Positions 1 through 41,291 of a stretch of 64,000 bases of DNA are shown piece after piece; the stretch's first letter is position 1, and each line of letters opens with the position of its first letter. Location of the stretch: assembly GCF_000332815.1 (NCBI RefSeq), contig NZ_AOFD01000010.1, positions 1 to 64,000 of the forward strand, read 5' to 3'. The position numbers and the translations under genes are program-made. The notes beneath the pieces are model-generated. The model saw nothing but the letters and a program-made list of their open reading frames with translations. It did no database searches and had not been told where the DNA came from. This stretch comes from Arthrobacter nitrophenolicus (lineage in GTDB: Bacteria > Actinomycetota > Actinomycetes > Actinomycetales > Micrococcaceae).

Positions 1-164
1 TGTTCCAGCGCCGCGGCCCAGCCGGCCTCGACGGCGAGGATCGCCGCCAGTACGGCACCGTCACCCGTCAGCGCAGCCACCATGGGCGATGCGGAGGCGG
101 GCCGGAGCAGGCCGGCGTCGACACCGTGGCCGGCGGCCGCGTTCGGGGCAGCGGCGTCCGTCAC
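1..164 (-). CDS. pcaB: 3-carboxy-cis,cis-muconate cycloisomerase, N-terminal fragment
   Basis: The open frame starts with GTG at 164 and runs off the left edge of the window, so only about 54 residues are present. They include a segment reading GLLRPASASPMVAALTGD followed by AVLAAILAVEAGWAAAL, which resembles the N-terminus of PcaB, a fumarase/aspartase-superfamily enzyme. PcaB cyclises beta-carboxymuconate, the product of protocatechuate 3,4-dioxygenase, in the beta-ketoadipate pathway. The start codon overlaps the pcaG stop by GTGA, a typical sign of translational coupling inside a pca operon. Identity rests on these residues plus position directly after pcaHG; the catalytic C-terminal part is outside the window. 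Confidence 0.78.
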   Translation of the reverse strand, partial: MTDAAAPNAAAGHGVDAGLLRPASASPMVAALTGDGAVLAAILAVEAGWAAALE

Positions 165-38961: not shown

Positions 38962-40344
38962 CTAGAAGCCGCCGCCGCCGGCGTCGGCCGCCATGTTCGC
39001 GAACCGCGAGTAGTGGCCCTGGAAGGCGACCACAATGTCCTTCGTGGGGCCGTTACGGTGCTTGGCCACCAGGATGTCCGCTTCGCCGGCGCGCGGTGAT
39101 TCCTTGTCGTAGACGTCCTCACGGTGGAGCAGGATCACCATGTCGGCGTCCTGCTCAATGGACCCTGACTCTCGAAGATCCGAAACCATGGGGCGCTTGT
39201 CCTGCCGCTGTTCAGACCCACGGTTGAGCTGGGACAGGGCAATGACGGGCACTTCGAGTTCCTTGGCGAGCAGCTTGAGCGCACGGGAGAATTCGGACAC
39301 TTCCTGCTGGCGGGACTCCACTTTCTTGCCGGAGCTCATGAGCTGCAGGTAGTCCAGGATGACGAGCTTGAGATTGTGCTGCTGCTTGAGGCGCCGGCAC
39401 TTTGCCCGGATTTCCATCAGGGACATGTTGGGGCTGTCGTCGATGAAGAGCGGAGCGTCGTTCATCCGGCCCATCGTGGTGGCGATCTTGGACCATTGCT
39501 CGTCCTTGATGGTTCCCTTGCGGAGGTCCTGCAGGCCGATGGTGGCTTCGGCCGAGAGGAGACGCATGGCGATCTCGTTGCGGCCCATTTCGAGAGAGAA
39601 CATGACGGTTGCCAGATTGTTCTTGATCGCCGCGGAACGGGCGAAGTCCAGGGCGAAGGTGGACTTACCGACGGCGGGGCGGGCAGCGATCACGATCATC
39701 TGGCCCGGGTGGAGGCCGTGGGTGAGTTCGTCAAGCTCGTAGAAGCCCGTGGGGACACCGGTCATGCCCTCACCGCGGTGGCCGGACGCCTCAATCTCGT
39801 CCACGGTGGACTCCATGACGTCCTTGAGCACCACATAGTCCTCGGCGGTCCGGCGCTCGGCCACCGCGTAGACCTCGGCCTGCGCCTGGTTGACCAGCTC
39901 CTCCACCTCGCCGTCGGAGCCATAGCCCAGCTGGACGATCTTGGTGCCGGCATTCACGAGGCGCCGCAGGACGGCGCGTTCGGCCACGATCTCGGCGTAG
40001 TACCCGGCATTGGCCGCCGTGGGAACGGTCTGGATCAGTTCATGGAGGTAGGCCGGGCCGCCGATCCTGTTGATCTCGCCACGTTTTGTCAGCTCGTCCG
40101 AGACGGTCACTGCGTCCGCGGGCTCACCCCGGCCGTAGAGGTCAATGATGGCTTCGTAGATGGTTTCGTGGGCCGGACGGTAGAAGTCCTGGCCCCGGAG
40201 GATCTCAACCACGTCGGCAATGGCATCCTTGGACAGCATCATGCCGCCAAGAACCGACTGCTCGGCGGCGATGTCCTGGGGAGGCTTTCGGCTTGAGTCT
40301 GATCCGCGGGTAGTTTCCACCGGGTCCAGTTGCGCGATTGACAA
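38962..40344 (-). CDS. dnaB: Replicative DNA helicase DnaB
   Basis: A 460-residue hexameric helicase. The N-terminal collar domain begins with PPQDIAAEQSVLGGMMLSKDAIADV. The RecA-like core has Walker A ARPAVGKSTFALDFA, Walker B LVILDYLQLM and the C-terminal DLRESGSIEQDADMVILLHRED motif. No intein is present. I choose TTG at 40344, which has GGAGG nine bases upstream and yields MSIAQLDPVETTRGSD; the frame is open ten codons further to 40374. The DnaA-box cluster upstream is described separately. Confidence 0.95.
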   Translation of the reverse strand: MSIAQLDPVETTRGSDSSRKPPQDIAAEQSVLGGMMLSKDAIADVVEILRGQDFYRPAHETIYEAIIDLYGRGEPADAVTVSDELTKRGEINRIGGPAYLHELIQTVPTAANAGYYAEIVAERAVLRRLVNAGTKIVQLGYGSDGEVEELVNQAQAEVYAVAERRTAEDYVVLKDVMESTVDEIEASGHRGEGMTGVPTGFYELDELTHGLHPGQMIVIAARPAVGKSTFALDFARSAAIKNNLATVMFSLEMGRNEIAMRLLSAEATIGLQDLRKGTIKDEQWSKIATTMGRMNDAPLFIDDSPNMSLMEIRAKCRRLKQQHNLKLVILDYLQLMSSGKKVESRQQEVSEFSRALKLLAKELEVPVIALSQLNRGSEQRQDKRPMVSDLRESGSIEQDADMVILLHREDVYDKESPRAGEADILVAKHRNGPTKDIVVAFQGHYSRFANMAADAGGGGF

Positions 40345-40500
40345 AGCTGCCGTCCTCCATTTGTACCGGGACATGGATTGCCCGGTGGTTACTGTCCTGT
40401 CTGAGGCTCACCCGGAAAAGTCCGTGCCCAGCCACCTGTCCAGTTCTACCGGCGGGGTCCGACAATGCTGCCGCCACCCCGAAAGCACATGATCCGGGAG

Positions 40501-40981
40501 TTATCCCCACTGTCCACAGGTTTTCCACAGAGGCCTCTCCTGAGGACAGTCATGGGCCGCGGCGTGGAGTGTGAACACCCGGCTGCCGGAGCCATTTCCT
40601 GCCCTCACAACAGGTACTCCGCTACGCTAGCCCCCCGAGCCCCGGCCGCAAAGCCGGAAGGCCTGGGCGGCTGTGGATAACCTGTGCACTAAGCGGCATA
40701 GCTTGTGCACAGCCTGTGTGAAAGCCTGTGGAAAGAAAAAAACTTTTGCCTGCTATCGGGCTCTGACCTGCGGAAACAGCACATTAAGACTGTGGAGTAA
40801 ATATTTCTTCTGTGGAATTTCATCCACAGGGTCTTTCCCTTCCGCTGGGCCAGGGGGTGGCTAAACGGCTCAAGTGACCCATGCCATGGGCAGGGAGTGG
40901 GACTTCTCATATTCCCCCTGCAGCGACTGCGACGAATGCCAGCCACGCTGTATGCGCACGCGTGAATATTGCTGTGGATAA
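40501..40981. promoter_or_regulatory. DnaA-box cluster upstream of dnaB
   Basis: The region holds two perfect DnaA boxes (TTATCCACA, both on the minus strand, at 40672-40680 and 40973-40981). It also has near matches: TTATCCCCA (40501), CTGTCCACA (40510), TTTTCCACA (40521), CTTTCCACA (minus, 40727), TACTCCACA (minus, 40791) and TCATCCACA (40820). Between them lies an unusually AT-rich stretch (about 40728-40830: AAAGAAAAAAACTTTTG and TAAATATTTCTTCTG). It fills the gene-free gap of 662 bp between dnaB and the gene at 41007. It resembles a small origin-like region or a DnaA-titrating or regulatory site. Confidence 0.65.
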
Positions 40982-41006
40982 CGTGGATCTGGCATAAGCT
41001 CTAAGT

Positions 41007-41291
41007 ATGGGCGAACTGCTGCTGGTGCTTCTGCCGGCAATTGTCCTGGTGGCGCTCATCTGGGGTCTCTTCACGGCTCTGAGCCCGCGGGACTCCGGCA
41101 TCTCCGACGCGGAAAAATACCAGCGCGACCTTGCCGAACGCTCAGCCCGGCATTACGCAGCCCAGGTTGAAGCGGCAACCGCCGCCCGCGCCCGGCTGGA
41201 GGCGAAGACGCGCCCCAGCCAAAACGCGCAGCAGCATATCCAGCAGCAGGACGCAGGCAAACAGATCTGGCACCGGCCAGGAAACATATAG
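41007..41291 (+). CDS. Small single-pass membrane protein
   Basis: The 94-residue product begins with a membrane helix (LLLVLLPAIVLVALIWGLFTAL) and has a basic, Gln/Ala-rich cytoplasmic helix (AEKYQRDLAERSARHYAAQVEAATAARARLEAKTR as a likely coiled coil). There is no ribosome binding site; a TAAGCT element six bases before the ATG suggests a leaderless mRNA. Function unknown. It may be co-transcribed with the next gene, 13 bp away. Confidence 0.65.
   Translation: MGELLLVLLPAIVLVALIWGLFTALSPRDSGISDAEKYQRDLAERSARHYAAQVEAATAARARLEAKTRPSQNAQQHIQQQDAGKQIWHRPGNI

Follow-up and report, generated by a model that had tools for sequence, protein, structure and literature searches.

The intergenic gap in front of dnaB in Arthrobacter nitrophenolicus contains a dense group of binding motifs for the replication initiator DnaA, and raises the question of what such a group does beside the gene of the replicative helicase. 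The window, which is the whole 64,000-nucleotide stretch that was analyzed, contained dnaB on one side of this 481-bp gap and a divergently transcribed gene on the other. The initial annotation, made from the letters of the window, had offered three readings: a site that titrates DnaA or times initiation, a DnaA-controlled dnaB promoter, and an origin-like element. The features of the locus were as follows (window coordinates; boxes are lettered from the divergent gene towards dnaB).

38962–40344, reverse strand: dnaB, replicative helicase (Pfam DnaB_C, 6.3e-108; DnaB N-terminal, 3e-37)
40501–40529, forward strand: three boxes within the predicted leader of dnaB, namely E at 40521, F at 40510 (two mismatches here), and G at 40501
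40624–40629, reverse strand: candidate −10 element TAGCGT of the dnaB promoter, in a block conserved across the 30-genome alignment
40646–40651, reverse strand: TTGCGG, candidate −35 element for dnaB, with box D lying 20 bp upstream of it
40672–40680, reverse strand: perfect DnaA box (D), preceding the candidate −35 element (genus alignment)
40703–40711, forward strand: box-like TTGTGCACA, within the near-invariant block CACAGnCTGTGCACAA
40721–40820, no strand: AT-rich core, 59% AT, the best 100-mer
40727–40735, reverse strand: DnaA box C, CTTTCCACA, two mismatches here, 55 bp upstream of box D
40820–40828, forward strand: TCATCCACA, DnaA box B, which is nearly invariant among genus members and mostly 148 bp from box D
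40973–40981, reverse strand: DnaA box A, perfect, ~26 bp upstream of the divergent gene (motif scan, genus comparison)
41007–41291, forward strand: divergent gene (open reading frame), 94-aa protein with an apparent membrane segment

The motif scan of positions 40501–40981 gave two perfect DnaA boxes, three boxes with one mismatch, and five with two mismatches. The perfect TTATCCACA sites were located at 40672–40680 and 40973–40981, both on the reverse strand, and the one-mismatch boxes at 40501–40509, 40521–40529, and 40820–40828, all on the forward strand; the two-mismatch sites started at 40510, 40703, 40727, 40791, and 40856. The scan and the AT profile agreed with the earlier description of two perfect boxes, further near matches, and an AT-rich segment. 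Five of the nine sites with at most one mismatch in the window fell inside the gap, and 100 shuffles of the whole window averaged 3.33 such sites and never exceeded 8. Two perfect TTRTCCACA sites per 64 kb were reached by 6 of 100 shuffles, which makes the pair mildly unusual. The rarity of the gap resides in the clustering of its boxes and not in the number of perfect ones; the initial annotation had put the chance expectation of perfect boxes below one per 64 kb. Chance clustering was also considered as an explanation and was ruled out by the shuffles, by permuted and reversed motifs, and by random placement of boxes.

The AT content of the core, measured from 40721, was matched by ~0.01% of positions in 90 kb, and the gap between dnaA and dnaN reached up to 57% AT. 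Averaged over 37 loci of the genus, the 150 bp between boxes B and D contained 51% AT and the next 150 bp contained 36%. The list of open reading frames showed no convincing gene at 40501–40981, where short overlapping frames were present. A structured RNA was dropped as a candidate after an Rfam scan of 40300–41100, in which one match scored 17.4 bits against a cut-off of 35 (E 0.28).

Translation of dnaB probably starts at the TTG codon at 40344–40342, with GGAGG (40358–40354) placed 9 nt upstream, rather than at the first in-frame ATG at 40374; the region around the TTG and GGAGG was conserved in the 30-genome alignment. The candidate dnaB promoter, TTGCGG-16-TAGCGT (40651–40624), matched the consensus loosely. 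It was not among the matches of a stricter sigma-70 consensus scan, which picked another promoter at 40516–40489 (shuffle mean 0.3). The divergent 94-aa protein had no confident match in Pfam, where DUF2514 was sub-threshold.

Conservation was examined in a genus set composed of 36 relatives and the own genome (37 loci), of which 30 were aligned and seven examined separately. Matches were obtained in 58 of 59 genomes; G045 (no match) and G051 (weak match) were excluded, and 20 of the 22 genomes from the order were kept. The cluster was retained in all 37 genus loci, with 2–8 boxes of at most one mismatch in fixed places, at least one of them perfect. Shuffles of the 30 aligned loci averaged 0–0.33 boxes per locus, and the reversed motif gave none in the other seven. 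Box B (TCATCCACAG), TTTCCGCAGGTCAGA, the block that includes the box-like site, and box D were near-invariant in the alignment and their flanks drifted; boxes B and D were separated by 148 bp in most genus loci, and box C had one mismatch or was perfect in many relatives. The gap first noticed in a single genome was thus found conserved in the relatives, and the DnaA-box group before dnaB in A. nitrophenolicus is a real, conserved element. A sequence comparison across 149 genomes of the family detected the core DNA in 38, which represent 11 of 32 genera.

Boxes upstream of dnaB extended well beyond the genus. They were present in 57 of 81 loci from the order (at least two boxes in 44) and in 18 of 27 loci from the class (at least two in 10), counts that exclude seven loci (five duplicates and two genus members) and cover a subset of the 117 and 79 matched genomes; the order set takes in five loci from other genera of the family of the window, and three class loci (L143, L160, and L161) had less than 310 bp of upstream sequence. 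Among named actinobacterial loci, 73 of the best 80 matches carried boxes (at least two in 70), including Streptomyces (31/31), Microbacterium (10/10), and Nocardioides (5/5); this set is uneven, with Streptomyces providing 31 of its 80 loci. Its members with the closest dnaB were Arthrobacter, up to 98% identical among these best 80 matches. One named locus (L207) was almost identical to an unnamed one (L110), and no other overlap of this sort was found. Permuted motifs occurred at 0.03–0.05 per locus, with one set counted before duplicates were removed. Within the best 80 matches, the loci that carried no box were both of those from Nesterenkonia and single loci of Rothia, Pedococcus, Modestobacter, Brachybacterium, and Sediminivirga; boxes were also absent upstream of dnaB in five of seven loci of family f6 and in five of six of family f11. 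The boxes were mostly directed with dnaB (103 with and 30 against, in 50 named loci of which 49 were not Streptomyces). Of the 73 named loci that had a forward box, 21 contained a pair of boxes in the same direction and 54–57 bp apart, and boxes C and D of the genus were arranged likewise.

When the named loci were aligned on the last box, a TTGnnn element and, after ~17 bp, a TAnnGT element appeared directly behind it. A box at most 25 bp upstream of a dnaB-directed TTG-16..18-TAnnnT was found in 59 of 81 loci (the best 80 named loci and the window), a count that is no independent test because the pattern was framed on the same named loci. All 31 Streptomyces loci and 28 of the 50 others contained the arrangement. 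The opposite strand gave 1 of 81, permuted motifs a mean of 0.3, and random box placement a mean of 7.4 with a maximum of 16. The smallest gap between box and promoter-like sequence was 5–8 or 19–20 bp in each of the 59 loci. In the unnamed sets, on which the pattern was not shaped, it was rarer and occurred in 12 of 81 order loci (opposite strand 2), with two gaps of 15 and 17 bp, and in 5 of 27 class loci (opposite strand 0). Within the genus, 33 of 37 loci had the arrangement (opposite strand 0), and the smallest gap was 19 or 20 bp in 31 of these 33.

The site was compared with the DnaA regions described in mycobacteria. As reported in PMC7738170, IDAP-seq of Mycobacterium tuberculosis placed the region upstream of dnaB among five strong DnaA regions in vitro (oriC, rpmH–dnaA, dnaB upstream, Rv0010c–Rv0011c, and Rv3843c–RVnc0040), and ChIP-seq of Mycobacterium smegmatis found the five homologous regions bound in vivo. 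The same report describes a mycobacterial DnaA mutant with weaker binding to the dnaB promoter that made less dnaB. The mycobacterial and Arthrobacter sites are alike in initiator, gene, and upstream place. Box clusters in the Arthrobacter genus also lie, as in mycobacteria, in the dnaA–dnaN gap, upstream of dnaA, at dnaB, and near a putative crgA. The Arthrobacter site differs in that it is known from sequence alone, that it contains up to 8 boxes over ~480 bp, and that its spacing was measured here; the Arthrobacter cluster at −8 kb from dnaA has no counterpart stated in PMC7738170.

The cluster is therefore taken as a DnaA-controlled promoter region of dnaB, on account of the mycobacterial binding and the lower dnaB of the weakly binding mutant (PMC7738170). 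This reading is the best supported of the three offered at the outset because it is backed by the conservation, by the spacing between boxes and promoter, and by the DnaA binding reported for the corresponding mycobacterial position, and we consider it probable that the region is one that DnaA putatively activates and that has been enlarged in the genus. DnaA is predicted to bind boxes C and D, the core pair that immediately precedes the candidate dnaB promoter. Bound DnaA would probably activate this promoter, so that the supply of helicase would follow the active initiator. The additional boxes of the genus (A, B, and E–G) would form an array with likely cooperative DnaA binding, and the enlarged array may also take up some DnaA near oriC. 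We infer that the predicted promoter is the real promoter of dnaB, and that in Arthrobacter DnaA would bind there, would activate rather than repress, and would in part be held by the array as a sink. Against this reading, the majority of the genus's boxes are not adjacent to the promoter, and a promoter switch by itself would not require such boxes.

Mycobacteria already provide a known example of DnaA binding in front of dnaB (PMC7738170). In the open-access literature searched, earlier reports of such a site were found only there and, for Caulobacter crescentus, in PMC8203912. The breadth of the boxes upstream of dnaB, their preferred spacing from the promoter, and the enlarged cluster in the genus are new; no earlier description of the class-wide spread or of the preferred spacing was found in the open-access literature, and the passages considered from PMC4210621, PMC13152386, and PMC13270200 did not mention boxes upstream of dnaB. 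In Caulobacter crescentus, dnaB belongs to the DnaA regulon (Hottes 2005) and has predicted boxes upstream, as described through PMC8203912. Both bacteria have predicted DnaA boxes in front of dnaB, and in Caulobacter the expression of dnaB depends on DnaA (PMC8203912). Caulobacter belongs to a distant phylum, and the comparison covers the presence of boxes and the dependence of dnaB on DnaA.

The alternative that survives best is related to the surroundings of the origin. The gene dnaA is absent from the window, as the initial annotation had stated, yet it is located on the same contig (C10:86395–87816), just beyond the window and ~45 kb away, so that this dense cluster lies outside oriC yet near it. 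Farther along C10 are parB, parA, other genes, dnaA, and dnaN (Pfam: ParB, ParA-type ATPase, DnaA, and DNA polymerase III beta). The distance between dnaB and dnaA was 46–80 kb in the own genome and the seven relatives measured. The own genome contained 28 perfect boxes, compared with 7 occurrences of the reversed motif. Besides dnaB, boxes were grouped at C10:77.9–78.3 kb, on both sides of dnaA, and at C87:5.7–6.8 kb; the others were single. In the five complete genomes of the genus for which all perfect boxes were listed, at least two perfect boxes per 1 kb occurred only in the dnaA region, at about −8 kb and +17 kb, and at dnaB in three of these genomes; G016 and G018 had a single perfect box at dnaB. 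The record of one complete relative, G001, starts with dnaA, and the position of dnaA was confirmed in this genome. Its 400 kb around dnaA contained 67 sites with at most one mismatch, compared with 16 for the reversed motif. Windows of 500 bp with at least three boxes were found only at −55 kb (dnaB, 7 boxes per 500 bp), at −8.5 kb, in the dnaA region, and at +17 kb, and the reversed motif reached a maximum of 1. A random spread of similar box density, which would have spoken against the initial annotation, was thus not seen in these 400 kb, where the sliding windows gave no further dense clusters.

The cluster at +17 kb was the densest, with 11 boxes per 500 bp and 4 more at G001:C1:16917–18052, ~17 kb from the start of dnaA, corresponding to C87:5713–6788 (L001) in the own genome. 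It lies between genes for a rhomboid protein and a methyladenine glycosylase (Pfam), with a putative crgA-like gene beyond, and the minimum of the GC skew in G001 lay ~3–4 kb from it. This cluster may act as the principal sink for DnaA or contribute to the function of the origin. Its gene neighbourhood resembles what we take to be that of the Rv0010c–Rv0011c site, Rv0011c presumably being crgA. The cluster at −8.5 kb (C10:77927–78336, L002; 7 boxes per 500 bp in G001) is located between a thioredoxin-reductase-like gene and parB, and a pair of boxes near −10 kb was kept in three f11 genomes.

From this map it could be argued that the cluster mainly titrates DnaA near oriC and times initiation as in Bacillus subtilis, with its position beside dnaB incidental or secondary. 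Three clusters recur in the neighbourhood of dnaA apart from the origin itself, this one among them, the number of boxes per cluster exceeds the need of one promoter, and clusters of B. subtilis and Streptomyces are reported to restrain initiation (PMC5295017, PMC5742627). Like Arthrobacter, these two have several clusters outside oriC (Okumura 2012 and Smulczyk-Krawczyszyn 2006, via PMC5295017 and PMC5742627); the Arthrobacter clusters found lie near the origin and are known as sequences, whereas an effect on initiation is reported for B. subtilis and Streptomyces. The datA and DARS sites of Escherichia coli are likewise non-coding DnaA-box clusters, and feature IHF or Fis dependence and ATP/ADP switching (PMC5742627). 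However, for titration there would be no need for boxes to be present at dnaB in much of the class, often in ones or twos, or for them to be mostly oriented with dnaB and often to keep a favoured spacing from a promoter-like sequence. In G039 and G228, moreover, dnaB is 130 and 221 kb from dnaA and the boxes are still upstream of dnaB. The three f11 genomes, in which dnaB is 268–383 kb from dnaA, had no TTRTCCACA 20–90 kb from dnaA on the parB side, the usual side of the dnaB cluster; this comparison of position against dnaB is indecisive because the displaced f11 dnaB genes have lost their boxes too. Titration as the main role is accordingly rated as rather unlikely.

Less likely still is that DnaA represses dnaB, or acts through box A on the divergent 94-aa gene, instead of activating dnaB. 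Box A lies ~26 bp upstream of the divergent start, and DnaA bound to boxes E–G, within the predicted leader of dnaB, could obstruct transcription; the position of boxes upstream of the −35 element suits activation, however, and the lower dnaB in the mycobacterial mutant with weaker DnaA binding (PMC7738170) speaks against repression.

A second or accessory origin adjoining the helicase gene is highly improbable and was set aside because of the GC skew of G001 and the layout of boxes and AT-rich DNA: boxes with an AT-rich core do look origin-like, and the cumulative skew over 90 kb of contig C10 was lowest at ~39–42 kb with a modest rise after, but this shallow minimum is trusted less than the 400-kb profile of G001, which, although noisy, was about level from −90 to 0 kb, lowest at +20.8 kb, and without a turn at dnaB, contrary to the origin-like element of the initial annotation, and the AT-rich part sits between the boxes, whereas unwinding elements are described in PMC4285127 as lying beside a box cluster and never inside it.

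A module of DnaA boxes that recurs at dnaB across the class would provide a direct and testable link between the initiator and the supply of helicase, and the cluster map indicates where control of origin timing may be sought in Arthrobacter and its relatives. No homologues of helicase loaders or of DnaA regulators have been identified in mycobacteria, according to PMC5720831. As far as the sequence tells, the Arthrobacter cell probably ties its helicase supply to DnaA. A small and conserved actinobacterial circuit near the origin is conceivable, albeit doubtful, in which one DnaA pool would serve oriC, the promoters of dnaA and dnaB, and one or two more clusters on the parB and crgA sides; the dnaB promoter would be its widespread core, and the array of the genus would double as a sink. 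If this circuit is true, one signal would set both the time at which replication starts and the amount of helicase available for it.
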